64,000 nucleotides of DNA from Devosia sp. Root635. Its GTDB lineage: Bacteria; Pseudomonadota; Alphaproteobacteria; Rhizobiales; Devosiaceae. A program made the position numbers and the translations under genes. The stretch spans positions 125,071 through 189,070 of the forward strand of contig NZ_LMGZ01000012.1 of assembly GCF_001427605.1 (NCBI RefSeq). The letters are read 5' to 3'. Within the stretch, counting starts at the first letter, position 1; each line of letters begins with the position of its first letter. The notes below the pieces were generated by a model, which saw only the letters and a list, made by a program, of their open reading frames with translations, made no database searches and was not told the DNA's origin. Shown here piece by piece: positions 13,764 to 29,200 of the stretch.

Positions 13764-13794
13764 TGGCAATCTGTTTTTTATGAATAATAAAACC

Positions 13795-13806
13795 TGATGA
13801 TATTAT
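13795..13806 (+). promoter_or_regulatory. TGATGATATTAT half-site shared with the 17 kb operator
   Basis: This 12-mer is identical to bases 16988-16999, which form the left part of a perfect 21-bp palindrome. Here the right half is degenerate (TAAATAGGGCTT). It sits in an AT-rich patch between the divergent system A permease and the lacI-type gene, in otherwise GC-rich DNA. Confidence 0.45.
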
Positions 13807-14007
13807 TAAATAGGGCTTCCCCCGCGGCCGGGCAGGTGTATCCTGTGTGCGAAAAGCTTTGGAAAACCGGCTCTTGTGTGCTTCTAGGCAAGGTCTCCCT
13901 GTGCGGGCTGTGGTGACGCCCATCCATACGCAAGCTATGGTCATATCAATGATTTCGCGGCCTGACCGGGTGACTCGCGATCTGACGGATTTGAAGAGGC
14001 CTCCAGC

Positions 14008-15036
14008 GTGACGACTTCCAAGCGACGCTCTCCGACCGGGCGACCCACCATGATGGACGTCGCGGCGGCCGCTGGCGTGTCCCAGGCGACGGTGTCGCTG
14101 GTCCTCAGCGGTGGCAAAAGCGGCCGGCTGGCCGATGAGACGCGCAGGCGGGTCGTCGAGGCGGCGCAGACCCTGGGTTATAAATTCGTTCGCCGTAACC
14201 AGCGGGCTGCGCCAGGCGGGCAGTCCACCATCATCTTTATCGCCGACGAAACCATTACCGATCCCTGGATGTCGCTGGCCTTCGAGGGCGCGCGCGACAA
14301 GGCGCTCGAGGTCGGCATCAACATGCTGATGGGGGTGAGTCATGCCGATGCCGATGTCGAAACCAACATTCTGGCCGGACTGGGCAATGTGTCCATTCTT
14401 GGCCTGATCTACGGGACCATCCTGACGCGTGCCGTGCAGCTTCCGCAGGCTTTGACCAAGCATCGGCTGGTAACGGTCAACTGCTACAACGAGGATAACG
14501 CGTTCCATTCGGTGCTGCCTGGCGATGTGCTGGGCGGCCGCACCGCCACCCAGCATCTGCTGTCCAGGGGCCGCAAGCGCATCGGTTTCATCAACGGACA
14601 GCAGGGCCTCGACAATACGCGCGACCGGCTCAAGGGCTACAAGCAGGCCCTGTCCAGCAATGACGTGCCCTTTGACCCGGCGCTGGTGCGCCCCGGCAAC
14701 TGGGAGCCCTCATCCGGCTACCACATGACGCACGAACTCATGCGGCTCGATAACCCGCCTGACGGCATATTCTGCGCCAACGACATGATGGCCGTCGGCT
14801 GCTATGACGCATTGCGCGAACTGGGGCACAAGGTGCCCGACGATGTTGCCGTGATCGGTTTCGACGATCGTGACATTGCCCAATACATGCATCCGCCACT
14901 GAGCACGTTCGTGCTGCCGCTCTATGAAATGGGCCAGATCGCCGTGGAGCTGCTGCTCGACGATGCGGGTGGCCTGCATTCCTCGCCGAGCCGGATCAAG
15001 GTGGAGTGCGAGCTGGTCGAACGGCAGTCGACATAG
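14008..15036 (+). CDS. LacI-family transcriptional regulator
   Basis: A 342-residue repressor. The N-terminal HTH reads MMDVAAAAGVSQATVSLVLSG, with the hinge-region RRRVVEAAQTLGYKF. The effector domain is of the periplasmic-binding-protein type (IFIADETITDP, GGRTATQHLLSRGRKRIGFI, GIFCANDMMAVGCYDAL, VIGFDDRDIAQYMHPPLST). The start is GTG 14008, preceded by AAGAGG at 13994-13999. It stands between two importer operons and is the natural candidate to control them; two intergenic regions flanking this block share the TGATGATATTAT motif. The inducing sugar is unknown. Confidence 0.92.
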   Translation: MTTSKRRSPTGRPTMMDVAAAAGVSQATVSLVLSGGKSGRLADETRRRVVEAAQTLGYKFVRRNQRAAPGGQSTIIFIADETITDPWMSLAFEGARDKALEVGINMLMGVSHADADVETNILAGLGNVSILGLIYGTILTRAVQLPQALTKHRLVTVNCYNEDNAFHSVLPGDVLGGRTATQHLLSRGRKRIGFINGQQGLDNTRDRLKGYKQALSSNDVPFDPALVRPGNWEPSSGYHMTHELMRLDNPPDGIFCANDMMAVGCYDALRELGHKVPDDVAVIGFDDRDIAQYMHPPLSTFVLPLYEMGQIAVELLLDDAGGLHSSPSRIKVECELVERQST

Positions 15037-15081
15037 GCCGGGCCGTTCGGTCGCCCCGCCGCAATGCGACGGGGCGATGGC

Positions 15082-16104
15082 TCAGTCTGATGACCGGGCG
15101 CTGCGGAACCGGTCGAATGCGACGGCAATGACGATGAACGACCCCACGAAGGCCCCCTGCCAGAACGTGCTGATGCCCAGCAGGATCAGGCTGTTGCGGA
15201 TGACTTCGATCAGCAGCGCGCCGACGATGGCGCCGAAGGCGGTGCCGACGCCACCGGCGAGGTTTGCGCCGCCGATAACCGCCGCGGCGATGACTGACAG
15301 CTCCATGGCCTGGCCCAGATTGGTGGTGACGCCGCCGAGCCAGCCGACTTCCAGTACGCCCGTGATCCCGGCCATCAGCGCCGAGAACATATAGACCGAG
15401 ACCTTGAGACGCATCACCGGGATACCCGTCAGCTTGGCCGCCTGTTCATTGCCCCCCATGGCGAACAGATGCTGGCCCCAGCGCGTCCATTTGAACAGGA
15501 AGCCGGTGATGCCGGCGAGCACACCAAGCACGATCAGCGGATTGGGCAGGCCCAGCGTCGCGCCCCCGCCAAGCGCCAGCAGCATGGCCGTATCCGGCCC
15601 GAACTCGTAGATCATCTTGTTGTCGGACAGCACCATGCCCAACGAGCGCACCACAGACAGCCCGCCAAGTGTTACCACGAAGGGCGGCATGCCCGCATAG
15701 GCGATGAGAATGCCATTGGCGAGGCCGACCAGCATGGCCGCAAGCAGGGCGGCGGGCACGCCGATCCAGATCGGCATGCCCGACGACATCAGCACTGCCA
15801 CCACCATGGCCGACAGCACCACGGTCGAGCCGACCGAAAGGTCGATGCCGCCAGAGGCGATGACTGCGGTCATGCCCAGAGCGATGATGCCCACAAAGGC
15901 GAAGTTGCGCGACACGTTAAAGAGGTTCCGATCCGTCGCGAATGTATCGGTGAGCAGCGATAGCGCGATGCAGGCGAGCAGGGCCGCCACGAAGACCCAG
16001 AATGTCTGGTGGCTGGTGATGCGCGACAGCAGGCTGCGATACTCGGACCGGTCGATGACCTCGGAAAGCGTATTGGACGACATGGTCTTGTTCTCCGGGC
16101 TCAT
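15082..16104 (-). CDS. Sugar ABC transporter permease, RbsC/FrcC type (system B)
   Basis: A 340-residue CUT2 permease with about ten membrane segments after a ~30-residue cytosolic N-terminus. Landmarks are TAVIASGGIDLSVGSTVVLSA, PPFVVTLGGLSVVRSLG, VIAAAVIGGANLAGGVGTAFGA and the C-terminal FWQGAFVGSFIVIAVAFDRFR. Its ATG shares a 4-bp ATGA overlap with the stop of the upstream ATPase gene, indicating coupling. A second in-frame ATG at 16083 is possible. Its binding protein is probably the divergent 17153 gene, since none lies on this strand. Confidence 0.92.
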   Translation of the reverse strand: MSPENKTMSSNTLSEVIDRSEYRSLLSRITSHQTFWVFVAALLACIALSLLTDTFATDRNLFNVSRNFAFVGIIALGMTAVIASGGIDLSVGSTVVLSAMVVAVLMSSGMPIWIGVPAALLAAMLVGLANGILIAYAGMPPFVVTLGGLSVVRSLGMVLSDNKMIYEFGPDTAMLLALGGGATLGLPNPLIVLGVLAGITGFLFKWTRWGQHLFAMGGNEQAAKLTGIPVMRLKVSVYMFSALMAGITGVLEVGWLGGVTTNLGQAMELSVIAAAVIGGANLAGGVGTAFGAIVGALLIEVIRNSLILLGISTFWQGAFVGSFIVIAVAFDRFRSARSSD

Positions 16105-16841
16105 GCCAGTTCGATGGCGCCAGTGATGAGGCCAGTGACCTCCTCGGGCGAGGAATCGGCGGCGCGCTTGCTGGCGACCAGCCTGCCGCGCCGCAGCACG
16201 GCGATCCTGTCGGCCACCTGGAAAACGTCGGGCATGCGGTGGCTGATCAACACGACGGCAATGCCATGGTCGCTGAGTTGGCGGATGAGATTGAGCACCT
16301 CGGCCACCTGCCGTACGGAAATGGCCGCGGTCGGTTCATCCATCAGCACGATCCGCGCGTCGCTGAGCAGGGTGCGGGCGATGGCAACGGCCTGGCGCTG
16401 CCCCCCGGACATGCGCTTGACCAGATCGCGTGGCCGCGTCTCGGATTTGAGGCGCTTGAACAGCTCCCCGGCACGCACGCGCATGCCGGCATAATCGAGC
16501 ACGCGGAACGGGCCGAACTGGCGCGTCAGCTCTCGACCCAGGAAGACGTTGGAGGCTGCCGATAGATTGTTGCAGATCGCCAGGTCCTGGTAGACCACCT
16601 CGATGCCAGCCCGCTGCGCATCGATCGGCCTATGGAAGTTCGCCCGCGTTCCCCCGATGTGAATTTCGCCCGATGTCGGGGCGAAATTTCCCGCGATGAC
16701 TTTGACCAGGGTGGATTTGCCGGCGCCGTTGTCTCCCATCAGGCCGACGACCTCGCCTGGCTCGATAGATAGAGAGACGTCGGTCAGCGCGTGAATCGCC
16801 CCGAAATGTTTACTAATATTATCCAGTCGCAATGCGCTCAT
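16101..16841 (-). CDS. Sugar ABC transporter ATP-binding protein, single-domain FrcA-type (system B)
   Basis: A 246-residue single-domain ATPase: Walker A GDNGAGKST, Q-loop VYQDLAICNNL, signature MSGGQRQAVAIARTL, Walker B IVLMDEPTAAI and H-loop ISHRM. It is clearly related to the system A ATPase but too different in the middle to be a recent copy. It is the first gene of a two-gene operon with the 15082 permease, divergent from the 17153 binding-protein gene across a 311-bp gap that carries a perfect palindrome. Confidence 0.92.
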   Translation of the reverse strand: MSALRLDNISKHFGAIHALTDVSLSIEPGEVVGLMGDNGAGKSTLVKVIAGNFAPTSGEIHIGGTRANFHRPIDAQRAGIEVVYQDLAICNNLSAASNVFLGRELTRQFGPFRVLDYAGMRVRAGELFKRLKSETRPRDLVKRMSGGQRQAVAIARTLLSDARIVLMDEPTAAISVRQVAEVLNLIRQLSDHGIAVVLISHRMPDVFQVADRIAVLRRGRLVASKRAADSSPEEVTGLITGAIELA

Positions 16842-17152
16842 GCGCCTCCCCTTCGTTTGCGCTACGGCTGTTTTCGGGGAGTATCCCCAGAAAACGCCAA
16901 CTCTGGTTGAATTTCAGCAATTGCCGGTGCCGAGACCATTCTCGGCTTCACGTTGAAGATTCAATCTTGACCTTCTTGCCATTTCAATGATGATATTATC
17001 ACATAATATCAGCTTCGCTACTGGGAATGACGCCCTGTGCGGTCCGGTCACCGGAAAGCTGAAGTCATGCTGCTGGAAAATTTCCGGAGCGACAGGAGGG
17101 GAATGTCGGGCCGCAAGGGTCCGCCGTCACTCGCAACAAGGGAGGACTAAGT
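16842..17152. promoter_or_regulatory. Divergent promoter region of importer system B
   Basis: This 311-bp gap separates the ATPase/permease operon (leftward) from the binding-protein operon (rightward). It holds the palindrome at 16991-17011 in an AT-rich patch. Near its right end, GGGAGGA at 17140-17148 is the ribosome site for ATG 17153. No small ORF in the gap looks credible. Confidence 0.6.
16991..17011. promoter_or_regulatory. Perfect 21-bp palindromic operator candidate
   Basis: TGATATTAT and ATAATATCA are exact reverse complements around a CAC centre. The site lies 150 bp upstream of the system B ATPase start and 142 bp upstream of the divergent binding-protein start, so one bound dimer could control both. 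The left half plus three more bases recur at 13795-13806 upstream of system A. Confidence 0.65.
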
Positions 17153-18142
17153 ATGAAGTACGTAAGTCAGACAGCTGCGGCTGTCGCTATCGTGGCCGTC
17201 GCGGCTGCGGGCGCGCACGGGCAGGACAAGAAGACGCTCGCCATCGTGGTAAAGGGCCTGGACAACCCTTTCTTCGAGCAGATCAACCTGGGCTGCCAGG
17301 ATTGGGCTGCCAACAATCCCGATTCCGAATATGAGTGCCTCTATACCGGGCCTGCCTCGAGCGCCGATGAAGCCGGTCAGGTTCAGCTCGTCGATGACCT
17401 GATCACGCGCGGCGTCGCGGCAATCGCCATCTCGCCATCCAATGCCCCTGCCATGGCCAACAGGCTCAAGGAAATTGCGCCTGAAATTCCGGTGATGACC
17501 GTCGATGCCGATCTGTCCGAGGCAGACCGCGCCCTGCGCGCCACCTTCCTAGGCACCGACAACTACCTCATGGGCGTCATGATGGCCGAACAGGCCCAGC
17601 GCCTGAAGCCCGAAGGCGGTAGCGTCTGCCTGCAGCTCGGCAATGTGGCGGCCGACAATATCAACGCCCGTGCTGCCGGCTTCCGCGACACCATCGCCGG
17701 CGCCAAGGGCACCGATCGCCTGGCCGATACCAATGGCTGGAGCGAAATCGAGGGTTGCCCGGTCTTTACCAATGACCAGATCGACCTGGCCAACCAGCAG
17801 ATGGCCGACGTGTTCACGTCCAATCCGGATCTCGACGCTTTCATCCTGATTGGCGGCTGGGCCCAGTTCGCGCCGCAGGCCTATGCCCAGGTGACGGACC
17901 AGGTCATGGACCGGCTTAACAGCAATGAACTCATCATCATTGCCGGCGACACCCTGCCGCCGCAGGTGCAGGCCTTCAACGAGGGCCGCAGCCACGCCCA
18001 GATCGGCCAGCGCCCGTTCGAAATGGGCCAGAAGGCCCCGGACGTGATGATCCAGCTGATCAACGGCGAGGCGGTCGAAGACCCGCTCTATACCGGTCTC
18101 GACGTCTGCACCCGCGAAGAACCCGGCTTCTGCGCTCCATAA
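17153..18142 (+). CDS. CUT2-type sugar ABC transporter, substrate-binding protein (system B)
   Basis: A 329-residue periplasmic protein with a signal peptide (MKYVSQTAAAVAIVAVAAAGAH, cleavage near AHG-Q). The core has LAIVVKGLDNPFFEQINLG, VAAIAISPSNAPAM and TDNYLMGVMMAEQA, as in the ribose/fructose binding-protein group. At least six cysteines are spread through the mature chain (ECLY, VCLQ, EGCP, VCTREEPGFC at the end), suggesting disulfides. It is first in a rightward unit running to 22959 and faces the ATPase/permease pair that lacks its own binding protein. Confidence 0.88.
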   Translation: MKYVSQTAAAVAIVAVAAAGAHGQDKKTLAIVVKGLDNPFFEQINLGCQDWAANNPDSEYECLYTGPASSADEAGQVQLVDDLITRGVAAIAISPSNAPAMANRLKEIAPEIPVMTVDADLSEADRALRATFLGTDNYLMGVMMAEQAQRLKPEGGSVCLQLGNVAADNINARAAGFRDTIAGAKGTDRLADTNGWSEIEGCPVFTNDQIDLANQQMADVFTSNPDLDAFILIGGWAQFAPQAYAQVTDQVMDRLNSNELIIIAGDTLPPQVQAFNEGRSHAQIGQRPFEMGQKAPDVMIQLINGEAVEDPLYTGLDVCTREEPGFCAP

Positions 18143-18161
18143 GTTCTGTCCTCCAAAGCAA

Positions 18162-18187
18162 CGGCATGGCGCTCAGGTGCCATGCCG
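18162..18187 (+). other. Stem-loop downstream of the binding-protein gene
   Basis: CGGCATGGC and GCCATGCCG form a perfect 9-bp stem with an 8-nt loop, 19 nt after the binding-protein stop. It has no T-run. Such hairpins often stabilise the abundant binding-protein mRNA relative to downstream genes. The ATG at 18182 sits inside the stem, which argues against its use as a start. Confidence 0.55.
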
Positions 18188-18244
18188 ACCTTGGGGCGCG
18201 CCTCCCGCCTGGGCATCGGCCCGGCATGCAAAGGGTCTGTTGAG

Positions 18245-19219
18245 TTGAAGCTTCTCGTTACCGGCATAACCGGCAAGGTCGGGTCCAATTTCCTGCCTGC
18301 ATTCCTGGCCGAGGGGCGCTTTACCGGTTGGTCCATTCGGGCCATCTGCAATGTCAGAACTCTCGATCATCCCGCGGTCGAAGTGGTGCGCGCCTCACTT
18401 TCCGATGCAGCGGCGGTGCGGGCGGCGATGGAGGGCGTGACCCATGTCCTGCACATGGCCGGCGTCAAGGAATCGCCTGACCTGGCGATCGATGTCGGCG
18501 TGAAGGGCATGTTCAACCTGCTCGAAGCGTTCCGGACATCGCCGACGGCCCAGCAATTCATGCTCATTGGCGGCGACTGCTCGGTCGGCCACATCTTCCA
18601 CGACTATGGCGCGCCGATCACCGAAGTCTCGCCGCGTCGCGCCTATCCCGGCTGCTATGCGCTGACCAAGGTGATCGAGGAGGTCATGCTGGAGCAGTAT
18701 CGCATCCAGTACGGCATTAATGGTTGCTGCCTGCGCGCACCGTGGATCATGGAGAAGGACGACTTCCGCCATGTGCTGAGCTTTCGCAGCCAGTTCGGCG
18801 GTCCATCCTGGCACGAATTCTTCAGCACCGCCGAGGTTGAGCGTCTGGCCCAACTCGATGCGGTGCCCCTGCTCTGGGACGCCACCGGCCTGCCGCTCAG
18901 GCGCAACTTCATCCATGTCAGCGACCTGGTCCGGGCGATCCTGGCGGCGCTCGACAATCCGGCGGCGGCAGGCGAGCTCTTCAATATCGCCATGACCGAG
19001 CCGGTCGACTACGCGCGGGCGGCAGCGCATCTGCAAGCCTCGCGTGGCGTGCAGGTGGTCGAAGTCGCCACCCCCTATTTCAGCAACTGGCTGGACAACG
19101 CCAAGGCCGGGCACCTGCTCGGCTGGCGGCCGCTGGTCGATCTCGAACAGCTCATCGAGCGCGCCTGGACCTATGTCCGCGCTGCCGATGATCCACGCAT
19201 CGTCTGGTACCCGGGATAG
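18245..19219 (+). CDS. NAD(P)-dependent epimerase/dehydratase (extended SDR)
   Basis: A 324-residue extended short-chain dehydrogenase of the sugar-epimerase type. The Rossmann motif is LLVTGITGKVGSNF at the very N-terminus and the catalytic YALTK pair is present with upstream Ser/Thr residues (GGDCSVGH). FIHVSDLVRAILAALDNP is the conserved cofactor/substrate segment. The start is taken as TTG 18245, which yields M-K-L-L-V-T-G with AAGGG about 10 nt upstream; an in-frame ATG at 18182 lies in a hairpin and adds unrelated residues. Its place inside an importer operon suggests it acts on the imported sugar or its lactone/acid. Confidence 0.82.
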   Translation: MKLLVTGITGKVGSNFLPAFLAEGRFTGWSIRAICNVRTLDHPAVEVVRASLSDAAAVRAAMEGVTHVLHMAGVKESPDLAIDVGVKGMFNLLEAFRTSPTAQQFMLIGGDCSVGHIFHDYGAPITEVSPRRAYPGCYALTKVIEEVMLEQYRIQYGINGCCLRAPWIMEKDDFRHVLSFRSQFGGPSWHEFFSTAEVERLAQLDAVPLLWDATGLPLRRNFIHVSDLVRAILAALDNPAAAGELFNIAMTEPVDYARAAAHLQASRGVQVVEVATPYFSNWLDNAKAGHLLGWRPLVDLEQLIERAWTYVRAADDPRIVWYPG

Positions 19220-19379
19220 GGGGCAGGCGTGACCCATACAATCGCAACGGAGTGCATCAAAGGCTCCGGAGTCCGAAGGGCGGCGAGGGGTATGGACTGA
19301 CCGGTGGCAATGGGTGCCGCCGGATATGAGGAAAACGTCGCCCGGCACGGTCAGACCTGTCGGCGATTGGAGGAACAAA

Positions 19380-20327
19380 ATGAACTGGAAACTTGCCGTA
19401 TCGACGGCCGCACTGGCCACCTTGATTGCAGGTCCCGCTTTCGCGCAGGACAAGCCGCAGCTCGCCTTCGTCGTCAATGCCGCTTCCGATTTCTGGAAGC
19501 TGGCCGAAGCCGGCGTCGCCAAGGCGCAGTCAGAACTGCCGGGCTATGACCTGCAGTTCCGCTACCCCGCCCAGGGCACGGCGGCGCTGCAGAACTCGCT
19601 GATGGACGACCTTGTCGCCGCCGGCACCGATGCCATCATGATCTCATCGGCCGATCCCAAGAACTCCATCGACGCCTTCAACCGCATCGCTGCACAGGTC
19701 CCGCTGTTCACCACCGACAGTGATGCCCCGGCCAGCAACCGCATTGCCTATCTGGGCTCGTCCAACACCCTCGCCGGCGTGCAGGCGGGCGAGATCGCCG
19801 TGAAGGCGCTGCCCGATGGGGCCAAGTGCATGGGCTTTGTCGGTTTCCTCGGGGCCGACAATGCCATCGAGCGCATCGCCGGCTTCCGCCAGGCCGTCGA
19901 AGGCTCGGGCATCGAACTGGTCGATGTGCGCGGTGACGATGTGGATTTCGCGCGCGCCCGCTCCAATGTCGATGACGTGCTGGCCGCCAATCCGGAAATC
20001 AACTGCATGGTCGGGTTCTATTCCTACAACCCGCCCAAGATCTACGAAGCACTTCAGGCAGCCGGAAAGCTCGGCCAGGTCACGGTCATCGGCTTCGACG
20101 AGGATCCGGTCACCCTGGGCGCCGTGCGCGAGCGCAGCTTTGCCGGTACCGTCGTGCAGGACCCCTACCAGTGGGGTTATCAGGGCATGCACCTGATGGC
20201 CAAGTATCTGGAGGGCGACAAGTCGGATGTGCCTGATGACGGCCTGATCATCGTGCCGACCAAGATCATCGACGCGTCCAATGTCGATGCCTTCGAGGCT
20301 GAACTCAAGGGGCGCATCGGCGGGTGA
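19380..20327 (+). CDS. CUT2-type sugar ABC transporter, substrate-binding protein (system C)
   Basis: A 315-residue periplasmic protein; ATG 19380 is preceded by GGAGGAA. The signal peptide runs to about residue 22 (ATLIAGPAFAQ). The mature start LAFVVNAASDFWKLAEAGV, the DAIMISSADPKN segment and the late VTVIGFDEDPVTLGAV identify a ribose-type binding protein. It shares the operon with the RbsA-type ATPase and permease that follow, which makes system C complete on one strand. A 160-bp gap separates it from the SDR. Confidence 0.92.
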   Translation: MNWKLAVSTAALATLIAGPAFAQDKPQLAFVVNAASDFWKLAEAGVAKAQSELPGYDLQFRYPAQGTAALQNSLMDDLVAAGTDAIMISSADPKNSIDAFNRIAAQVPLFTTDSDAPASNRIAYLGSSNTLAGVQAGEIAVKALPDGAKCMGFVGFLGADNAIERIAGFRQAVEGSGIELVDVRGDDVDFARARSNVDDVLAANPEINCMVGFYSYNPPKIYEALQAAGKLGQVTVIGFDEDPVTLGAVRERSFAGTVVQDPYQWGYQGMHLMAKYLEGDKSDVPDDGLIIVPTKIIDASNVDAFEAELKGRIGG

Positions 20328-20345
20328 TCCTCCCAGCCGACGCAG

Positions 20346-20378
20346 CCGCACCGGGTCCTCTTCCTGGGTCCGGTGCGG
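20346..20378 (+). other. Stem-loop between binding-protein and ATPase genes of system C
   Basis: CCGCACCGG and CCGGTGCGG form a perfect 9-bp stem around a 15-nt loop, 18 nt after the binding-protein stop, with no T-run. Position and form match the hairpin at 18162 and suggest differential expression of the binding protein within the operon. Confidence 0.55.
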
Positions 20379-20440
20379 ACCGCCACTGTTGCCCCCGAGG
20401 CGGCGCCAAGGTGCCGTCCTCGTCGTTGTTAGGTGCCTGC

Positions 20441-21952
20441 ATGACGTCGCCATCCCCCTCGGCCCCGCTGCTGGTGCTCGAGAACATCTCCAAGGCCTAT
20501 CCCGGCGTCGTGGCGCTCTCGGACGTCACCCTGACTGTGCGGGCCAGTGAAGTGCTGGGCCTGATCGGGGAGAATGGCGCCGGCAAGTCGACGCTGATGA
20601 AAATCCTGGGCGGCGTCATCGAACCGAGCTCGGGCCGCATTGTCATCGACAATGTCGAATATGGCCGGCTCGATGTCACAGGGTCCCAGGCGGCAGGCAT
20701 TGCCTTCGTGCATCAGGAACTCAACGTCTTCGACAATCTCGACGTCGCCGCAAACATGTTCCTGGGCCGCGAGAAACGCCGCGGGCCGCTTCGGCTGCTC
20801 GATCTTGAGGGTATGCGCGACGCGGCGCGACCGCTGCTGGCGCGTGTCGGTGCGACGTTCGGGCCCGATGCCCGGGTGATCGACCTGTCGCTGGCAGAAC
20901 GGCAACTGCTCGAAATCGCCAAGGCGCTCTCCATCGACGCCCGGGTCGTCATCATGGATGAGCCGACATCGTCGCTGACCCTGTCTGAGACGCGGACGTT
21001 GATGAAGGTCATCGCCGATCTCAAGGATCAGGGCATCGCCGTCATCTACATTTCCCACCGACTGAGCGAGATCGAAACCTGCGCAGACCGCGTCTTCGCC
21101 CTGCGCGATGGCCGGGTGGCGGGGGAGCTGGCCCGTCACGAAATCGGCCACGACGCCATGATCCGCCTGATGATCGGGCGGGACCTCAAGGCGCTCTACA
21201 CCGCGCCCGCTGTCCCGCCGGGCGATGTCATCCTGTCCCTCAAGGGGGTCAGGACACAGGCGCGGCCGCTGGCGCTGGCCGATCTCGAGATCCGCGCCGG
21301 CGAGCTTGTCGGTGTCGCCGGACTGGTCGGGGCCGGTCGCACCGAGCTGGCCGAGGCCATCTTCGGCATCAGCCCCGTCATTGAGGGCGACATACGGCTG
21401 GATGGTCAAGCCTTTCGCGCCCGCACGCCCCGCGAGGCTATCGACGCCGGCCTTTACCTTGTGCCCGAGGACCGCAAGCGAACCGGCCTGCTGCTGGAAA
21501 GCGCCATCAGTGAAAACATCGTCCTGGCCGACCTGCAGTCGGTGGCGTGGCGCGGTCTGGTCTCGCTGCCGCGCATCCTGAGGCGCGCGACCGAGCAACG
21601 CGACAGGCTTGGCATCAAGGCCGCCGACCTGTCGAGGGTCGCCGCAGAACTGTCCGGCGGCAACCAGCAGAAGGTGGTGCTGGGCAAGTGGCTGTCCATG
21701 CGCCCCCGGCTGATCATTTTCGACGAGCCGACACGCGGCGTCGATGTCGGCGCCAAGTCGGAAATCTACCAGCTCCTGCGGGCCCTCGCCGAGGCCGGCG
21801 TCGGCGTCATGATGATTTCCAGCGATATGGAGGAGGTGATCGGCGTCTCCGACCGCATCGTGGTTTTGCGCGAGGGCCGGATTGCCGGGTCACTTCCGCG
21901 GGCAGAATTTACAGAACAGAGCGTGCTCAGGCTCGCCGTGGGGGCGAATTAG
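20441..21952 (+). CDS. Sugar ABC transporter ATP-binding protein, double-domain RbsA-type (system C)
   Basis: A 503-residue ATPase with two tandem nucleotide-binding domains. The first has Walker A GENGAGKST, Walker B VVIMDEPTSSL and the weak signature LSLAERQLLEIAKAL. The second has the degenerate P-loop GLVGAGRTE, the full signature LSGGNQQKVVLGKW and IFDEPTRGVDVGA. This asymmetry is normal for RbsA/XylG/MglA. ATG 20441 (MTSPSPSAPLLVLENISKAYPG) is chosen over an earlier in-frame start inside the hairpin region. It is 8 bp upstream of its permease gene. Confidence 0.94.
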   Translation: MTSPSPSAPLLVLENISKAYPGVVALSDVTLTVRASEVLGLIGENGAGKSTLMKILGGVIEPSSGRIVIDNVEYGRLDVTGSQAAGIAFVHQELNVFDNLDVAANMFLGREKRRGPLRLLDLEGMRDAARPLLARVGATFGPDARVIDLSLAERQLLEIAKALSIDARVVIMDEPTSSLTLSETRTLMKVIADLKDQGIAVIYISHRLSEIETCADRVFALRDGRVAGELARHEIGHDAMIRLMIGRDLKALYTAPAVPPGDVILSLKGVRTQARPLALADLEIRAGELVGVAGLVGAGRTELAEAIFGISPVIEGDIRLDGQAFRARTPREAIDAGLYLVPEDRKRTGLLLESAISENIVLADLQSVAWRGLVSLPRILRRATEQRDRLGIKAADLSRVAAELSGGNQQKVVLGKWLSMRPRLIIFDEPTRGVDVGAKSEIYQLLRALAEAGVGVMMISSDMEEVIGVSDRIVVLREGRIAGSLPRAEFTEQSVLRLAVGAN

Positions 21953-21960
21953 GAAAGCTT

Positions 21961-22959
21961 ATGCAGAAAAAAGACATGGGGCTGGCCGTCCTGATCATTA
22001 TCGTGGGTGCCATCGTCTATCTCAGGAACCCGCTGTTCCTGTCGCCCATCAACCTGGGAAACACCGCCAATCTCATCGGGCTGTTCGGCCTGTTCGCCAT
22101 CGGGCAGGGCTTCGTCATCATGACTGGTGGCATCGATCTGTCCGTGGGCTCGATGATCGCGCTGCTCGGGGTGATCTTCGTCGACTTGGTGGGCAAGTTC
22201 GGTGTGCCATGGCCGCTCGCCATCCTCATCACCATCGGCGTCGGCACCCTGCTGGGCCTGGCGCATGGGTTGCTGATCACCAGGCTGAAGATGCAGCCCT
22301 TCGTGGTAACCCTGTGTGGCCTGTTGATCTATCGTGGGGTCGCGCGCGGCTACACCGGGGAGGCCACGGCAGGGTTTCCGTTCGGCGCCAGCTACCCGGA
22401 ACTCGAATGGCTGACCATCGGCCGATCATTCGGCATTCCGCACTCCTTCCTCGCCATGCTCATCATCGGGGCGGTCTGCTGGGTGGTGCTGCACCGTTCG
22501 GTGTTCGGGCGGCATCTCTATGCCGTGGGCAAGAACGAGGACGCGGCCCGCTATTCCGGCATCCGCACGGGCCTCGTCATCACCGCCGCCTATGTGATCT
22601 GCGCGATCCTCACGTCCATCGCAGCCATCTACTTCGCCATGTTCACCAAGTCGGTGCAGCCATCCTCGCATGGCAATTTCTACGAGCTCTACGCCATCGC
22701 TGCCGCCGTGCTGGGCGGCTTTTCCCTGCGCGGTGGCGAAGGATCGATCATCGGCGTGGTGCTCGGGGCGGTGCTCCTGCAGGAGTTGCAGAACCTGGTC
22801 AACCTGCTGGGCATTCCCTCGTCGCTGAACTTCGCCGTCATGGGCGGGGTCATTCTGGCCGGTGTGCTGGCGGACCAGCAGTTCAACCGCTACCGCGCCC
22901 GGCGACGGGCCAAGCGGGCGATGGAGGCGCTCCCTTCGGGAACTCCTAGTGCCGGCTAG
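21961..22959 (+). CDS. Sugar ABC transporter permease, RbsC type (system C)
   Basis: A 332-residue CUT2 permease with about ten membrane segments. It shows QGFVIMTGGIDLSVGSMIALL, MQPFVVTLCGLLIYRGVARG, AAVLGGFSLRGGEGSIIGVVLG and a basic C-terminus (RYRARRRAKRAM). ATG 21961 follows the ATPase stop by 8 bp with GGAAAG in front. It is the last gene of the sugar-island operon; immediately downstream the sequence changes to decayed and mobile DNA. Confidence 0.93.
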   Translation: MQKKDMGLAVLIIIVGAIVYLRNPLFLSPINLGNTANLIGLFGLFAIGQGFVIMTGGIDLSVGSMIALLGVIFVDLVGKFGVPWPLAILITIGVGTLLGLAHGLLITRLKMQPFVVTLCGLLIYRGVARGYTGEATAGFPFGASYPELEWLTIGRSFGIPHSFLAMLIIGAVCWVVLHRSVFGRHLYAVGKNEDAARYSGIRTGLVITAAYVICAILTSIAAIYFAMFTKSVQPSSHGNFYELYAIAAAVLGGFSLRGGEGSIIGVVLGAVLLQELQNLVNLLGIPSSLNFAVMGGVILAGVLADQQFNRYRARRRAKRAMEALPSGTPSAG

Positions 22960-22971
22960 GATTGCGGCCAG

Positions 22972-23130
22972 AACGGTTAGCCGACCAAGATCTACGACAG
23001 CACGACCCAGCTGTCCGGCAGCCGCCGAAAACGAAGCGCGTATTGACGAATTCGCGCACCAGTTCGAACATTGGCATGTGCCAGATGTAGATGCCAATGA
23101 TGACCCGCGCGGTGGCAGGTTTTTGGGATT
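22972..23130 (-). pseudogene. Decayed fragment of an acyltransferase-3-type membrane protein
   Basis: On the minus strand one frame reads VIIGIYIWHMPMFELVREF, which resembles the last membrane helices of acyltransferase family 3 (OafA-like) proteins (typically ..YGIYLWHxP..). About 10 codons later the natural continuation (LPDSWVVLS, then a stop, then ILVG) is found in another frame. So only ~50 codons remain, with at least one frameshift and one stop. It lies at the border between the sugar operon and the integrase gene. The similarity is from memory of the family. Confidence 0.5.
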
Positions 23131-23230
23131 TCAAGATCAGAACTGAACGACCGCAATGGGGTCGATCTGCCGCTGATAAGCCTGCCATATTCGTTCTCTT
23201 CATGGCCGCTTCGGCCAGAGGAGAAATGTG

Positions 23231-23863
23231 ATGGGTATCTCACAGTACGACCCTGCTGCTGCAGGAAGACCTGCTTGGAATGCCGGTAGGCAGGTTGGCG
23301 CCAAACGTGCATTGAAGGTCAGACAAATCTGGTCAATTCGCTTCTTCCTTGACCGAGAGGGAAGGATGAGGGACCGAGCACTTTTTGACTTGGCTATCGA
23401 CAGCAAGCTTCGAGGCTGCGATCTGGTGAAGATCAAGATCGGCACGCTCGTGGCGGGACCTGCCATTCGAACTCGGTCGATGGTAATCCAGCAGAAGACA
23501 GGCAGACCCGTCCAATTCGAGATCACCGCTGACACAAGGGCCAGCCTGCTTGCTTGGCTTGAGCGACGCGGAGGGACGGTCGATGACTACGCCTTTCCAA
23601 GCCGTGTAGTGCACGATGGTCATCTGAGCACCCGTCAATACGCCAGGCTGGTGGACGAGTGGGTCACTGCAATCGGGCTGACGCCTGAGGAGTATGGCAC
23701 CCATTCGCTGCGCCGTACAAAGGCGTCGCTCATTTACAAAGCCACAGGCAACCTTCGGGCCATCCAGATACTTCTTGGCCATAGCAAGATCGAGAACACA
23801 GTTCGTTACCTTGGCGTGGATGTCGACGACGCTTTGTCGTTGTCAGAGGCAACCGAAATCTGA
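23231..23863 (+). CDS. Minimal tyrosine recombinase / phage-type integrase
   Basis: A 210-residue protein made almost only of the catalytic domain; the SAM-like core-binding arm of normal ~350-residue integrases is missing. Active-site residues appear intact: Arg in SKLRGCDL, Lys in QQKTGRPV, the THSLRRTKA box (HxxR), LGHSKIENTVRYLG with His and the nucleophilic Tyr. AGAGGAGA lies 6 nt before ATG 23231 (GTG 23228 is a poorer choice). Codon use includes many TTG, CGT and TCA codons, unlike neighbours. It could be a standalone recombinase or the remnant of an integrated element. Confidence 0.85.
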   Translation: MGISQYDPAAAGRPAWNAGRQVGAKRALKVRQIWSIRFFLDREGRMRDRALFDLAIDSKLRGCDLVKIKIGTLVAGPAIRTRSMVIQQKTGRPVQFEITADTRASLLAWLERRGGTVDDYAFPSRVVHDGHLSTRQYARLVDEWVTAIGLTPEEYGTHSLRRTKASLIYKATGNLRAIQILLGHSKIENTVRYLGVDVDDALSLSEATEI

Positions 23864-24201
23864 GCAAGCGACTTCGCCGGCAGCCGGTTGTGCTTCGTCG
23901 GCGAAGCGCCCCCATTCCGGCCGTTCAGTACCCGTCTAAGCTTTCCTAAAAGCTGCCATCCCTTACACTCGTGCCCCACGGCTGAAACGGGGTGGCTAGC
24001 AGAAGGGCCGGTTTTGGGGCGACCTGGTTAGAAGGCGGACAGTTCTCCTTCTAGAAAGGTCAAGTCCAAAAATTTGAGGCGTTTTCAGTTGGCGCACGGT
24101 GGCGGCGTGGTCTGGGCACATTGTCGCTGACTTGATACCTGCGGCCCTTTGGTAGTAGACGAAACCTTTGCCCCCTTGGGCATTGCGATCTTGGTGGCGT
24201 C
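23864..24201. other. Non-coding stretch after the integrase
   Basis: This 338-bp region has no credible ORF. Just after the integrase stop, CTTCGCCG (23872-23879) and CGGCGAAG (23899-23906) form an 8-bp inverted repeat with a 19-nt loop, a possible weak terminator. The rest is comparatively AT-richer and must hold the promoter of the ytcA-mdtNOP-like operon, but no clear -35/-10 pair or recombination site was recognised. Confidence 0.4.
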
Positions 24202-24480
24202 ATGAAACTGCGGCTCGCTGGCTTGAAAATAGCAGCTTTTCTCCCGTTTCTTGCGGCGTGTTCACCGGCGGGCGGCGCACCTTCCGTGCCTCTCTTTGGC
24301 TCGTTCTTCCCGGCATGGATCATTTGTGCCGTCGGCGGTCTGCTCATCGCTGTCGTTCTGCGCACTATTCTCATCGCCGTGCGGCTCGATGAGCATCTGC
24401 CGGCCCCGCCATTAGTCTATCTGTGTCTGGCGGTGAGCTGTGGCATTCTTTTCTGGCTGATCTGGGCGGGAGCGCTGTGA
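24202..24480 (+). CDS. YtcA-family small lipoprotein/membrane protein
   Basis: A 92-residue protein with a lipobox (FLPFLAACSP, Cys20) followed by two hydrophobic segments (FPAWIICAVGGLLIAVVLRTIL and PPLVYLCLAVSCGILFWLIW). Size, lipobox and position match YtcA, encoded in front of mdtNOP in E. coli; its function is not established. Its TGA overlaps the ATG of the HlyD-type gene by one base, so the two are coupled. It begins a four-gene efflux operon running to 29015. Confidence 0.82.
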   Translation: MKLRLAGLKIAAFLPFLAACSPAGGAPSVPLFGSFFPAWIICAVGGLLIAVVLRTILIAVRLDEHLPAPPLVYLCLAVSCGILFWLIWAGAL

Positions 24481-25526
24481 TGCGGGCGATAGTGGGCAAA
24501 GCCATCGGCTACGCGGTTTTCGCTCTGACGGCCGTTCTGATCTATTTCGCATGGAGCGCCGGAGCCTCCAGCCCCCGTTCTGATGTCGCCGAGATCGAGG
24601 CACCCGTCGTTCAGATTTCTCCAACTGTGCCGGGCCGCGTGATTTCCATTTGGGTCGAGAATAATCAGGCCGTCAACGCAGGCGATGTCCTGTTTCAGGT
24701 TGACCCTGAACCCTACCAACTTCGTCTCGACCAGGCCCAGGCCGAATTACGCGCTGCCGAGTCGGAACTGGCACAGGGCGGGCGCAATATCGCCACAGCC
24801 CAATCCAATGCAGATGTCGCACAAAAGCAGATCGAGCGCGCCCAGTTCAACTCCGACCTCGCCAAGCAGACGCTGGATCGGCTCGAACCGCTGCTGGAGC
24901 GCGGTTTCGTGACGGCGCAGCAGGTGGATCAGGCGCGTACGGCCTATAATGACGCCTTGGTCAGCCTCGATCAGGCATTGCAGTCGTCACAGGGGGCGAC
25001 CCAGGTTATCGGCACGCTCGACACGCGGCAGGCGCAAGTCGATACGGCCAAAGCAACGGTTGCCCTGATGCAGCGCGATCTCGACAACACGATTGTGCGC
25101 GCGCCATTCGACGGTCTGGTCACGGGCCTGCTCATGCCGCCGGGTGAATATGTGGTCACCGGGCAGACCCTTTTCTCCCTGATCGACACATCTGGCTGGG
25201 AAGCGGTGGCGTTTTTCCGTGAAACCGAATTGCTCAATATCGCCGTCGGGGACACAGCCGAGGTGTTCGTCATGACCGATTCCCGTCAACCGGTGTCCGG
25301 AACGGTGGCGGCCATTGGTTGGGGTGTGCGTTCGGCCGATGCCGCCAATCTCCTGGGCCTGCCGATTGTCTCCAATTCGCTCAACTGGGTGAAGGTGGCC
25401 AAGCGCTTCCCGGTCTATGTGCATCTGCATGAGCCGCCGGCCGACCTGATGCGTGTCGGCGCATCTGCAATGGTAGTAATCATGGGCGGGGTGGCCGAAG
25501 CGAACCATGCCGGCGACACGCACTAA
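24480..25526 (+). CDS. MdtN-like HlyD-family periplasmic adaptor subunit
   Basis: A 348-residue membrane-fusion protein: one N-terminal membrane helix (~10-28), a lipoyl-like half-motif VVQISPTVPGRVISIWVENNQ, a coiled-coil hairpin (~75-190, rich in AQAELRAAESELAQ-type heptads), then VRAPFDGLVTGLLMPPGEYV. It would join the inner-membrane FUSC-type pump to the outer-membrane factor. Gene order ytcA-mdtN-mdtO-mdtP is conserved with E. coli, where the pump is linked to tolerance of sulfa drugs and dyes; the role here is inferred. It overlaps the next gene by 20 bp. Confidence 0.88.
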   Translation: MRAIVGKAIGYAVFALTAVLIYFAWSAGASSPRSDVAEIEAPVVQISPTVPGRVISIWVENNQAVNAGDVLFQVDPEPYQLRLDQAQAELRAAESELAQGGRNIATAQSNADVAQKQIERAQFNSDLAKQTLDRLEPLLERGFVTAQQVDQARTAYNDALVSLDQALQSSQGATQVIGTLDTRQAQVDTAKATVALMQRDLDNTIVRAPFDGLVTGLLMPPGEYVVTGQTLFSLIDTSGWEAVAFFRETELLNIAVGDTAEVFVMTDSRQPVSGTVAAIGWGVRSADAANLLGLPIVSNSLNWVKVAKRFPVYVHLHEPPADLMRVGASAMVVIMGGVAEANHAGDTH

Positions 25527-27495
25527 TCCAGGTTTCTTCGGCATCGTGCTGGAAGAACTGCGTCCATTCGACGGGCGGCTGGGAGCCGCCCTGCGCATGG
25601 CGCTCTGCTGCATTCTGGTCGTGGCTTTCGCAATGAGCCAGCATGTGCCGGAAGCGGCTGTGTCCTGTTATCTCATTTTCTTTGCCAGCCGGGACAATGC
25701 CGCCAGCGGCATCCTGATTGCCATCGCGCTGATCATAGGTGTGTCCATTGGCGTCCTGCTCGGATTGGTATTCCTGCAACTGGCAGCCGATGAACCTGCG
25801 CTCCGCCTTGCCCTTATGGGGCTCTTCACCTTTGGCGGCATGTATTTTTCAGTCGCGACCAGGGCCGGACCGATCGCTGCCACAGTGGGGTTTGTCTTCG
25901 CCTTCGTGATGACGCTGAATGATTTCGTGCCCATCCCCGAGCTCTTGTCGCGTGGCATCAGCTGGATGTGGGTCGTGGTATTCGTTCCCATGGCGGTTCT
26001 CATCCTGGTCAATGCTTTGATAGGGCCCAATCCGGCCCGGCTGGTCCGCAATCGGCTGGCGCTGCGATTGCGCACCGCTGCTGCTCTTTTTCGAGGGGAG
26101 GCAGATGCTCGAGCAGAAGCGCAACACCTGCTTGGAGAGGACGCCAAGGCGCTCGCGGCCCCAGCAGGTCTTGCGGCTATCTTTGGCTATCACTCGAAGG
26201 ATGATGCCAAACGGCTGACCACACTAATGCCCATGGCGCAGGACCTGCTCGTGCAAGCGCTTGTGGCGCCACAGGACCAGCTGTTGTCACAGGCTCTTGG
26301 CGATTTGGCTGATCGTGTGGAATCCGGCAGACACGATGGACCTCGCCAGCGTGTTGCAGCACTTTCAAATATGACAAGGCCGATGGCGGAGCAGGCCGAG
26401 CGCATGGCGGACATATGGGCTGGACGAAAGCCCGTGCCGGAGCCCGAAAAGGCCGAACAGCCGCCCCGCGACACCTTTTCCAATCCCGCTTATGGCCAGT
26501 TCGCTCTCAAATCGCTGCTGGCCGTGCTGATTACATATACGATCTACACCGCTGGCGGCTGGTTCGAAATCCATACGGCAATGATCACCTGCTTCTATGT
26601 GGCGCTGGGCACGACCGGGGAGACGTTGCACAAGGCGGGCCTGCGCATTCTCGGCTGCCTGATCGGCGCGGCTATGGGAATTGGCAGCATTGCGTTTCTC
26701 ATGCCGCATATGACCGATATCGGCCAGTTGCTGGTTCTGGTGGGCATCGGCAGTTTCATCGCCGCCTGGGTGGCGCAAGGGTCGAGCTTCATTCAATATA
26801 TGGGCTGGCAGATGGCGCTGGCCTTCTTCCTGTGTGTGCTGCAAGGCTTCGGACCATCATTCGACATCGATGTCGCCACCAATCGCATCGTAGGCATTCT
26901 TATCGGCAATGTGGTGGTGACGATCGTCTTCCTCTGGCTTTGGCCAAACAGCGTGGCAGTGCTCACTGCGGGTCATCTGGCAAAAGCGGTTGAAGGGCTA
27001 GGCAATGCTATACGCTCCAGGGCAAACGGCCTTGCGCCCGTTGGGGCCGAACTGAAGGAAGCCCGCAGGCTTTCGCGCGTTTCCGCCTTCGAGCCGGGCC
27101 GGCTGCGGGCAACATCCCCGCTCTTGCCGCATGCCGAAGCGATCATGACCACCATTGGCGCGGTGGAACACAGCATTGCGCGGCTTCGCCTGTTGCAACA
27201 GAGGCCGCGTTATCTTTTCGGAGCGCCCATCTGTGTGAAAGCAGCAACGCTTGCCCAGCAAGCGTCGGCGGGCAGGTTTCTAGATGTAGCAGGCTGGTCT
27301 ATTCTGGCGCCTGACAAAGAGGCGAAAGCCATGCTTCTAGACGCTTTCACACAATCGAAGGAAACGCTGGTACGGCTTCAGACCGTCCTGGCGAAAAGTC
27401 CAAAACGAGCTGCCTGGCGGCGTGATCTTGAACAGACTGCGGACGCTCACCGCGAATTGATCGACGAATTTTCCCGGGCGCTGGAGACATTGTGA
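25507..27495 (+). CDS. MdtO-like FUSC-family inner-membrane transporter
   Basis: A 662-residue protein with the FUSC layout: two bundles of about five to six membrane helices (~25-175 and ~345-490), each followed by a soluble region. The N-terminal helices include LRMALCCILVVAFAM and GGMYFSVATRAGPIAATVGF, the second bundle FALKSLLAVLITYTIYTAGGW and GCLIGAAMGIGSIAF. Members (AaeB, MdtO, FusC) export aromatic acids and drugs with an HlyD partner. The gene starts inside the adaptor gene and ends 1 bp into the outer-membrane factor, fitting a coupled operon. Confidence 0.87.
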   Translation: MPATRTNPGFFGIVLEELRPFDGRLGAALRMALCCILVVAFAMSQHVPEAAVSCYLIFFASRDNAASGILIAIALIIGVSIGVLLGLVFLQLAADEPALRLALMGLFTFGGMYFSVATRAGPIAATVGFVFAFVMTLNDFVPIPELLSRGISWMWVVVFVPMAVLILVNALIGPNPARLVRNRLALRLRTAAALFRGEADARAEAQHLLGEDAKALAAPAGLAAIFGYHSKDDAKRLTTLMPMAQDLLVQALVAPQDQLLSQALGDLADRVESGRHDGPRQRVAALSNMTRPMAEQAERMADIWAGRKPVPEPEKAEQPPRDTFSNPAYGQFALKSLLAVLITYTIYTAGGWFEIHTAMITCFYVALGTTGETLHKAGLRILGCLIGAAMGIGSIAFLMPHMTDIGQLLVLVGIGSFIAAWVAQGSSFIQYMGWQMALAFFLCVLQGFGPSFDIDVATNRIVGILIGNVVVTIVFLWLWPNSVAVLTAGHLAKAVEGLGNAIRSRANGLAPVGAELKEARRLSRVSAFEPGRLRATSPLLPHAEAIMTTIGAVEHSIARLRLLQQRPRYLFGAPICVKAATLAQQASAGRFLDVAGWSILAPDKEAKAMLLDAFTQSKETLVRLQTVLAKSPKRAAWRRDLEQTADAHRELIDEFSRALETL

Positions 27496-29015
27496 TGGCC
27501 CAGAAGTGTATTTTCAGCGCCTTAGGTATGACGGTGCTGGCTCTGGCGCTGGCCGCATGTTCCACCTCTGCCATGAAGCTGGCTCCAGCGAACGCAAACA
27601 CGCCCTATCGCGGCGAGGCAGGTGGAGCCGCCGCAACGCCCGGCAATGCCGACTTCGGCGTGACGCCAGACCCAAGCATGCCGATCACCATCGCCGCGCC
27701 ACGGCTGGATGCCAACCGCACCTATGACCTGCCGGAACTTATCAACATCGCCCAGCTTTCCAATCCGGCCACGCAGGCCGCCTGGCAGAGGGCGCGGGAA
27801 GCGGCAGCGGCCGCAGGCATTGCCGAGGCCGCCTATCTTCCCATTATCAGCGCCGATGTGCTGGCCGGGTATGCTGTCACCTCAAACACGGTTCCCGGGA
27901 TCAACACAGCGCTCGTCTCGGTGCCTGATGGCACAATGACGGCCTCGGGGATGCAGGCCGTGCCAGCGGTAGCCGTCAAATGGCTGCTCTTTGATTTCGG
28001 CGCGCGAGATGCCGCGCTGGCGACGGCACAGCAATTGTCGTTTGCCGCCAATGTGGGCTTCAACGGCACCCATCAGAAGCTGATCTACGACGTCAGTAAC
28101 GCCTATTTTCAGTACAGCGCGGCACGGGCTCAGTCGCGCATCGATCGCGCGGCGCTCGACAACGCTCGCGTCGTTTTGGAGGCTGCCGAGGCTAGGCTGA
28201 CACAGGGTATCGCCACCACGATGGAGGTGGCGCAGGCCAAGCAGCAGGTAGCACAGGCCGAGTTCGACCTGACCGGGGCCACCGGCCGCGAGCGCAGCAA
28301 TTATTCCGTATTGCTCGGCACCATGGGCATTGCCCCCACAATCACCATCAAGGTGCAGGACATTGCTGGCAAACCCTTACCCCGTCAGGTTCCTGCCAAT
28401 CTGGACCAGATGATCGTTACTTCGCTGCAGCGACGCCCTGACGTCCAGGCCGCCTTTGCGCAAGTCAAAGCTGCCGAGCAGGGGATCGTGGCAGCGCGCG
28501 CCGAATTCCTGCCGAAAATTGCCTTGACCGGCACTGCCAACGGCACGTTCGGATCCTATTCGCTCAGCGATACACGCTTCGGCACAACCACGACGCTGGA
28601 TGTGAGCCAGCCCAATGCGGCTGTGCTCGTTGGCGTCACAATGCCGATTTTCGACGGCGGCATGCGCGATGCAAGGATGGAGGCTGCAACCGCTGTCGCC
28701 AACGCCTCCCAACAGGATTTTGCACGGCTGCAAAGCACCGCAGCTCAGGAAATCGTGGTGGCCTACGATGTGCTGCGCACCAGTCTCTCCGCGAACCAGG
28801 CTGCGTCGGAACTCGTCAACGCGGCGCGCACCAATTACGAAGCGGCACTCGACTATTACAAGAATGGCCTTGGCACGCTTTCCGATATCAGCGTGACCCA
28901 GAACGGGCTTCTCAAGGCGCAGTACGCCCAGGCTCAAGCGCGAAGCGATGCTTTCGTCGCCGCTGCGACCTTGGCCTTTGCCACGGGCACACTCACGAAC
29001 GCCCGAGGCCAGTAA
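27495..29015 (+). CDS. MdtP-like outer-membrane efflux lipoprotein (TolC/OprM type)
   Basis: A 506-residue outer-membrane factor. The signal peptide ends in a lipobox, LALALAACSTS (Cys ~21), so the protein is acylated like OprM and MdtP. Two repeated OEP domains carry long helices (LINIAQLSNPATQAAWQRA; MIVTSLQRRPDVQAAFAQV; GVTMPIFDGGMRDARMEAA), typical of RND/MFP-linked channels. ATG 27495 overlaps the pump TGA by one base. It completes a tripartite exporter next to an integrase, consistent with horizontal gain of the cassette. Confidence 0.9.
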   Translation: MAQKCIFSALGMTVLALALAACSTSAMKLAPANANTPYRGEAGGAAATPGNADFGVTPDPSMPITIAAPRLDANRTYDLPELINIAQLSNPATQAAWQRAREAAAAAGIAEAAYLPIISADVLAGYAVTSNTVPGINTALVSVPDGTMTASGMQAVPAVAVKWLLFDFGARDAALATAQQLSFAANVGFNGTHQKLIYDVSNAYFQYSAARAQSRIDRAALDNARVVLEAAEARLTQGIATTMEVAQAKQQVAQAEFDLTGATGRERSNYSVLLGTMGIAPTITIKVQDIAGKPLPRQVPANLDQMIVTSLQRRPDVQAAFAQVKAAEQGIVAARAEFLPKIALTGTANGTFGSYSLSDTRFGTTTTLDVSQPNAAVLVGVTMPIFDGGMRDARMEAATAVANASQQDFARLQSTAAQEIVVAYDVLRTSLSANQAASELVNAARTNYEAALDYYKNGLGTLSDISVTQNGLLKAQYAQAQARSDAFVAAATLAFATGTLTNARGQ

Positions 29016-29153
29016 TAATCAATGGACTGTCGGGGCCGCAAAAGCCAACGTGTGCTAGCAAGGTCCTATTTTCTCGATGTCTGCTTATGAGAGAACTTGC
29101 GCCGCCTCCATATGTCCTAGTTGGGGTCGAGAGCCGTCGCTTCGCCTCAAACA

Positions 29154-29179: not shown

Positions 29180-29200
29180 CTCATTCCAGTCCGGCCACCC

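Follow-up and report, generated by a model that had tools for sequence, protein, structure and literature searches.

A stretch of 64,000 nucleotides from Devosia sp. Root635 (contig NZ_LMGZ01000012.1, positions 125,071 to 189,070; hereafter the window) carries, beside infC, the gene of a short tyrosine recombinase enclosed by two outward-facing recombination sites, with a sugar-transport region to its left and an efflux operon to its right. This locus is probably a small member of an integron-like or dif-module-like site-specific system that moves multi-gene modules. The sites, their conserved dyad, their arrays, an excess of module ends at site cores and an empty place in relatives are observed, and the linkage and orientation of gene and sites suggest that this integrase is the enzyme acting on them. 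The window lies within a 363-kb contig of a 3.8-Mb Devosia genome in 24 contigs.

In the proposed mechanism, a short tyrosine recombinase would be located in a hub between two outward-facing sites. Multi-gene modules would lie between sites, and crossover within the core would swap, insert or remove them, probably in the form of circles. In the window, the hub would hold a sugar-type ATP-binding cassette (ABC) module on the left and an efflux module on the right, at an insertion-prone spot beside infC.

Recombination sites, arrays and shared modules

The right-hand site of the window, facing right, occupies 23894..23960 on the plus strand (core GCGCCCC, 23906-23912) and scores 37.2 bits with site model R1 and 33.5 bits with a held-out model. 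The left-hand site, facing left and of the CGACCCC type, lies at 23113..23169 on the minus strand (core near 23163), with 30.7 and 23.9 bits, respectively. Most integrase copies carry a site of about 55 bp, GNCNG..GCGCCCC..CNGNC plus an NGNC repeat 35 bp out, and the two NGNC repeats are 35 bp apart. Read outward, the edge motif comprises GCGCCCC (right) or CGACCCC (left), ATTYCNGNC[GA]TTC, about 14 variable bases and TTCC..AAAGCNGNC. It is kept in plan, not in sequence, and is found at both edges of most copies.

The 7-bp core is flanked by inverted half-sites, GNCNG at -12 to -8 and CNGNC at +8 to +12. Among 102 GCGCCCC sites, which are those left after removing two integrase-end motifs and may still include other integrase-adjacent types, the inner half-site has G in 73% at -12, C in 92% at -10 and G in 77% at -8. 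The outer side mirrors the inner one around the GCGCCCC centre (C 94%, G 98% and C 98% at +8, +10 and +12). For 35 GACCCC-type sites, the inner half-site values are G 91%, C 74% and G 83%. The site model starts at the core, and the inner half-site was not used in finding the sites. Alignment A1 included 32 of 44 flank sequences, chosen by eye. A consensus fold of 32 sites gave 0 pairs, with a hairpin in the variable middle still conceivable. In 14 of 190 sites, a motif designated W (GGGGTGG..) is found on the outer side of the core at a distance of 80-99 nt, and it occurs nowhere else in 260 nt, against a background of 0.003 per 260 nt. Two simpler approaches were abandoned. Left and right integrase flanks compared as inverted repeats were near shuffle level in most copies, and alignment by eye plus a model worked; the plain half-site pattern gave 20 matches in the own genome vs 13 in the reversed control, with only the locus found at one mismatch.

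Site matches at E<=0.1 occur in all 37 Devosia genomes searched (2-42 each). In other families, 13 of 24 genomes have any site, mostly one to three weak ones, and G040 has 13. The arrays can be large and two-sided. For instance, in G032 (sites of at least 12 bits over about 110 kb), a central integrase has five sites to its left, all on the minus strand, and twelve to its right, 11 on the plus strand and one on the minus strand. In the stretches chosen for their sites, 80 pairs of neighbours have the same orientation, with a median spacing of 4.4 kb, whereas 31 pairs point outward and 23 inward. Among close outward pairs, 15 of 17 have cores 19-20 bp apart with no integrase between them; the four that were read by eye share a similar centre, and in other copies the integrase stands there.

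Across 81 integrase loci, Devosia included, a threshold of 10 bits yielded a right-hand site on the plus strand in 40 and on the minus strand in 0 (37 with none, 4 too near an end). A left-hand site was on the minus strand in 14 and on the plus strand in 2 (63 with none, 2 too near an end). Reversed sequences gave 0 matches at 10 bits vs 112. Outside Devosia, the Devosia-trained model detected a site on the plus strand no more than about 100 bp past the gene in 19 of 56 integrase loci; these 56 are the 63 scanned of 80 named loci, minus 6 from Devosia and one unassigned metagenome-assembled genome (MAG), and the 17 omitted loci are mostly Devosia records duplicated under other names. Since the model was trained on Devosia sites, the Devosia counts of sites and orientations are not independent evidence. 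The inner half-site, the integrase-free module ends and the other genera are more so.

The ends of segments common to different genomes tend to coincide with cores. When Devosia stretches were compared all against all, shared segments had 40 distinct ends away from the integrase, of which 15 were no more than 25 bp from a core (0.37 expected); the mask, built from window proteins P0001-P0006, could have removed more than integrase overlaps. In a larger, overlapping set masked with the integrase alone (63 stretches, 1.42 Mb, 196 sites, 42 cross-genome matches of at least 300 bp and at least 90%), 14 of 47 ends were within 30 bp of a core and 11 within 15 bp. Ten sets of shifted cores gave 0 or 1, and 1000 random placements gave a mean of 0.46 and a maximum of 4.

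Two whole modules have both ends at cores, namely one of 11,024 bp common to G001 and G025 (99.70% identical) and one of 4,385 bp common to G009 and G025 (99.59%). When the junctions of the former were read, identity between the two genomes began with GCGCCCC on the left, reached as far as GCGCCCCATT on the right and was followed by divergence; judged by eye, its genes resemble those of ABC transporters and an RpiR-type regulator. Five further pairs have one end at a core. As sites of different modules share few identical bases round the core, homologous recombination is an unlikely cause of these exchanges.

The integrase hub and the island beside infC

The recombinase gene is located at 23231..23863 on the plus strand (ATG at 23231, stop at 23863) and encodes 211 amino acids that match Pfam Phage_integrase (E 3.5e-18). 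The catalytic set of tyrosine recombinases is R-K-H-x-x-R-H-Y, with assigned roles for its residues. Six such residues (R62, K90, H159, R162, H185 and Y194) are invariant in 17 integrase sequences and, together with the Pfam match, place the protein among these enzymes. Only about 40 residues precede the catalytic match, and the protein appears to be little more than a catalytic domain; an AlphaFold2 model is weak (mean predicted local distance difference test score 54). Simple tyrosine recombinases are described as a core-binding plus a catalytic domain (PMC8138268). The first-pass annotation, made from the sequence without database searches, had recognised a minimal recombinase with unusual codon use, and this is supported, as its codon adaptation index (CAI, with ten flanking genes as reference) is the lowest of 19 genes, at 0.40.

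The own genome holds one integrase of this family and two model sites, all within the window. The protein is 99-100% identical to copies in named Devosia records. The family is multi-copy in the genus, and a query of 61 relatives returned many strong Devosia matches; the full-length copies are 84-98% identical, a small number of them interrupted by stops, and fragments are numerous. The best 80 of at least 557 matches include relatives at 78-88% in Rhizobium, Mesorhizobium, Sinorhizobium, Phyllobacterium, Sphingomonas and other genera, and in one Arenimonas MAG. Plasmid records with relatives number 440, of which 321 are below 60%, and the names in the annotated plasmid records listed are general (tyrosine-type recombinase, integrase, site-specific integrase, hypothetical protein). 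Enterobacterial plasmids of E. coli, Shigella, Klebsiella and Pantoea (H78-H86) also carry short-integrase relatives, about 51-54% identical and named, for example, site-specific integrase. A second tyrosine recombinase, of about 320 amino acids, is multi-copy in some Devosia (G016:C1 at 1531223, 1996200, 2000239 and 2035262; similar in G027, G025 and G011); its score with the integron-integrase model, about 100 bits, falls far short of the cut-off.

The hub is sharply delimited. In G001 (D. sediminis), G016, D. elaeis and two contigs of a Devosia MAG, copies are 98.4-99.1% identical to that of the window, and the similarity is confined to the interval from about 23143-23159 to 23912-23926; one MAG contig ends inside the gene. 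Beyond these edges, no further similarity was found in the stretches compared. These limits define an integrase centre between the two sites at 23164..23905 on the plus strand, and copies elsewhere adjoin quite different modules. A distinct group of copies (G025, G009, G011 and others) has another left edge. In one locus (L044, G002:C5), part of the 3' flank of the integrase recurs about 130 bp farther out, resembling a partial duplication. In G012:C3 (L022), G001:C8 (L023) and G025 (L040), different integrases are followed by one and the same right-hand module, which in L023 is shifted by an additional stretch of about 165 bp that bears a site.

Thirteen relatives were compared at the infC neighbourhood. 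In the closest, G008 (infC protein 99% identical), the sequence of window positions 1-8702 is joined to that from 29148 through 145 bp. These neighbours are separated by 43-266 bp in G036, G006, G003 and G018, and by about 0.9-2.8 kb of other DNA in G030, G031, G033 and G027. Gene order is rearranged in G012, and other DNA lies beside infC, on its 3' side, in G028 (L158), G010 (L161) and G015 (L163, L164). The sugar region is absent from every stretch compared at infC in the 13 relatives. Among these stretches, the efflux operon is found in that of G010 only, 30 kb from infC; in G015 it lies 108 kb away. As G008 joins 8702 to 29148, the acquired segment corresponds to an island of about 20.4 kb (8719..29147, no strand assigned), comprising the sugar ABC region, the integrase and the efflux operon. 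The island is missing in G008, and the other relatives compared do not have it at this place either. Since this unit includes the sugar region, the integrase does not belong to an efflux cassette alone. A mobile gain, as put forward in the first-pass annotation, is supported by the segment missing in G008 and the close neighbours in four more genomes, so that the island is not a constant feature of the place, which is empty in five relatives; the proposed unit, the efflux operon alone, was too small.

The infC side is insertion-prone. Other DNA beside infC in G010, G015 and G028, together with an integrase fragment in G015, makes the spot look like an insertion hot spot; that fragment is degenerate and lies with a site about 15 kb from infC. 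At the left border of the island, a W motif at 8760..8774 (plus strand) is one of three W matches in the window, the second being at the expected distance from the site at 23906, and it suggests the remains of a truncated recombination site. The third, at 1752 on the minus strand, is outside the island with no site adjoining and is probably a chance match. At the infC border, a candidate degenerate site facing left (29079..29138, minus strand, core CGACCCC at 29129-29123) has both NGNC repeats, the exact 35-bp spacing and a GNCNG inner half-site. A pattern search revealed it where the two site models did not, and the pattern has four other matches in the window besides the two known sites. The island can be read as a sugar module, an integrase hub and an efflux module, possibly inactive now. 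Clear direct repeats, for which the first-pass annotation had proposed to look, did not emerge at the edges of the interval that it described (22960-29015), where a repeat search gave only short, imperfect pairs.

The left module (8719..23163, no strand assigned) encodes a sugar-type ABC transporter and catabolic genes; the Pfam families in ten scanned proteins are Peripla_BP_4, BPD_transp_2, ABC_tran, GntR/FCD, ADH and epimerase. On the right, the plus strand carries a ytcA-like gene (24202..24480, Pfam Ytca E 1.2e-11), mdtN for a periplasmic adaptor (24480..25526, 386.6 bits with the NCBIfam MdtN equivalog, cut-off 376), an mdtO-like FUSC permease gene (25507..27495, best NCBIfam model MdtO, E 1.3e-70, 238.7 bits, below the cut-off of 821) and an mdtP-like gene for an OEP/TolC-type outer-membrane efflux protein (27492..29015, Pfam OEP E 7.3e-53; MdtP model 43.7 bits, cut-off 597). 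An MdtNOP system has MdtN, MdtO and MdtP equivalogs in this order; of the three window proteins, MdtN is above its cut-off and the other two are below theirs. The operon adjoins infC, on the minus strand from 29201 onward, and the integrase and four efflux genes are open frames. A ytcA-mdtNOP-type operon at 24202-29015, placed between sugar genes and infC, is borne out by these matches, as is the recombinase; the acyltransferase-3 remnant that completed the original description is not. The 85-amino-acid minus-strand reading frame in question (22946-23203) has no Pfam match at E<=1, and its relatives outside the own genome, in the loci compared, are only the end of the integrase element and weak short matches. 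An Rfam search of 22000-31000 gave no match.

The G+C fraction is 0.565 in the integrase centre, 0.603 on the efflux side, 0.633 in the left module and 0.654-0.66 in the flanks. The codon analysis that had been recommended shows unusual codon use for the integrase; the CAI of the efflux genes is low (0.46-0.58) yet overlaps the low end of the ten flanking reference genes (0.53-0.80), and three sampled sugar ABC genes upstream look native (0.66-0.74).

The order ytcA-mdtN-mdtO-mdtP is that of E. coli, and the window operon has the same families in the same order. The MdtO and MdtP proteins fall below the model cut-offs. An E. coli-like origin is not supported, as the nearest relatives were found in Devosia. 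MdtO is matched in 6 of 61 relatives, four of them among the 37 Devosia genomes, counting the own one, and two among the 24 others, at 28-38%. The best Devosia proteins are 75, 70 and 69% identical, and among 297 genomes of the order the best match is likewise in Devosia (75%), the next being 48%. All 41 plasmid records with MdtO matches are below 60%, the best being from Ensifer (45%), and two Klebsiella plasmid matches labelled mdtO are at 34.6%. Of 75 Devosia genomes, 13 contain a long match to the operon region; one is the own genome, the other 12 are at 70-77% nucleotide identity, and 6 further genomes have only fragments under 60 bases. It is collinear in G010, G015 and G214, in surroundings not common with the window. 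The operon is patchily held, and its nearest known relatives, as judged from these sequence comparisons, are in Devosia.

Weighing the explanations

Several points weigh against a module-moving system. In the larger comparison, 33 of 47 shared-segment ends lie away from cores, and the 47 count both partners of each pair and some overlapping stretches, hence they are not independent. Right-hand sites escape detection in 37 of 81 integrase loci and left-hand ones in 63 of 81. G029, G030 and G006 have 33, 19 and 11 sites (E<=0.001) and lack an intact close integrase. The site model was trained on integrase-adjacent Devosia sites, and no site at E<=1 surrounds the efflux operon in G010, G015 and G214 (60, 40 and 36 kb read). 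In the window itself, the inner side of the left core is 2 bp shorter than in near-identical copies, both outer borders of the island are degenerate or truncated, and this minimal integrase copy may be inactive. Integrase activity, excision and circles are inferences from sequence, and the circular intermediate and the activity of the window copy are put forward in that sense.

These observations have to be set against the alternatives. The integrase might be an element of its own, a unit of about 740 bp that moves itself, like an insertion sequence, into pre-existing hub sites, with modules moving by other means and the sites serving as shared landing places. Near-identical integrase units in unrelated surroundings would be expected of such an element, as would the close outward pairs with cores 19-20 bp apart and no integrase, whose centre is similar in the four that were read. 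It would leave unexplained why integrase-free modules end at cores on one or both sides and why site arrays exist without an intact close integrase, and this explanation is judged unlikely. Less probable still, and judged very unlikely, is an island that is ancestral at this place, lost in the relatives and without recent movement. Loss is possible because the infC neighbourhood is variable in 8 of 13 relatives (0.9-2.8 kb of other DNA, rearrangement or other neighbours), and the sugar genes have normal codon use; on the other side stand the neighbours 43-266 bp apart in five relatives, the closest one included, and the efflux operon, found elsewhere in other surroundings and in a minority of Devosia genomes.

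A canonical integron with an unusual integrase has virtually no probability left, although site arrays, modules exchanged at one core and sites without an integrase elsewhere are all integron-like. The protein matches the integron-integrase model TIGR02249 along part of its length, with 20.2 bits; the cut-off is 265 and is exceeded in 0 of 61 genomes (no control genome passes either). Moreover, the core of integron sites is GTTRRRY, not GCGCCCC, the consensus site has no hairpin, and the two complete modules measure 4-11 kb. This candidate was rejected, as the integrase is not of the IntI family and no folded site was found. A site-specific system that moves multi-gene modules thus accommodates the sites, the orientations and the module ends best.

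A more tentative suggestion is that this system belongs to an undescribed gene-capture class, widespread in Alphaproteobacteria, which would combine a catalytic-domain-only recombinase, whole operons, a compact double-stranded site and two-sided arrays of about 100 kb, with no folded single-stranded attC. In the open-access literature excluding bioRxiv preprints, covered by titles and the beginnings of abstracts and, for some result lists, in part, no description of such an integrase-site system was found, and on this basis the system is apparently undescribed. A connection with the xerC gene beside mcr-10 was also considered, and the available part of a report on that gene names no recombination sites (PMC7067168). 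If the integron-like reading of the locus is correct, a defined and predictable site would be the route for a large part of the exchange of accessory genes in Devosia, and possibly in rhizobia and sphingomonads too, and a 211-amino-acid enzyme would move entire transport or catabolic operons as units. Modules could then be annotated across many genomes from their sequence, and a small recombinase with a compact double-stranded site would become available for study.

Comparison with known systems

The closest parallels are provided by integrons, in which an integrase gene stands beside arrays of mobile units with one kind of site, and units are common to several genomes. Arrays without an integrase are another shared feature, and tandem units of one site type exchanged at that site, a hallmark of integrons, were found here as well. 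The attI site consists of a core plus a direct repeat, and the Devosia site recalls it. The differences are that the Devosia recombinase lies outside the IntI family by the score given above, that the consensus site lacks a fold, attC sites being recognised as folded hairpins, and that sites face outward on both sides of the hub. Furthermore, complete Devosia modules of 4-11 kb differ from integron units, which are described as mostly one open reading frame with an attC (PMC8618304).

Small tyrosine recombinases of the FimB/FimE type resemble the Devosia enzyme in size, at about 200 amino acids, and apparently in consisting of hardly more than the catalytic domain. What the Fim enzymes invert is a single promoter segment. 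The sequence of dif, on which host XerC and XerD act, differs from the Devosia core. The dif modules of Acinetobacter plasmids are similar in that they are bounded by tyrosine-recombinase sites, occur in mixed orientations and are shuffled between replicons (PMC13141974). According to the abstract of that source, dif modules have pdif sites, are associated with Rep_3 plasmids and are unique to Acinetobacter. Unlike in this XerCD/pdif system, the recombinase gene of Devosia lies within the hub, and the core of its sites is GCGCCCC or CGACCCC.

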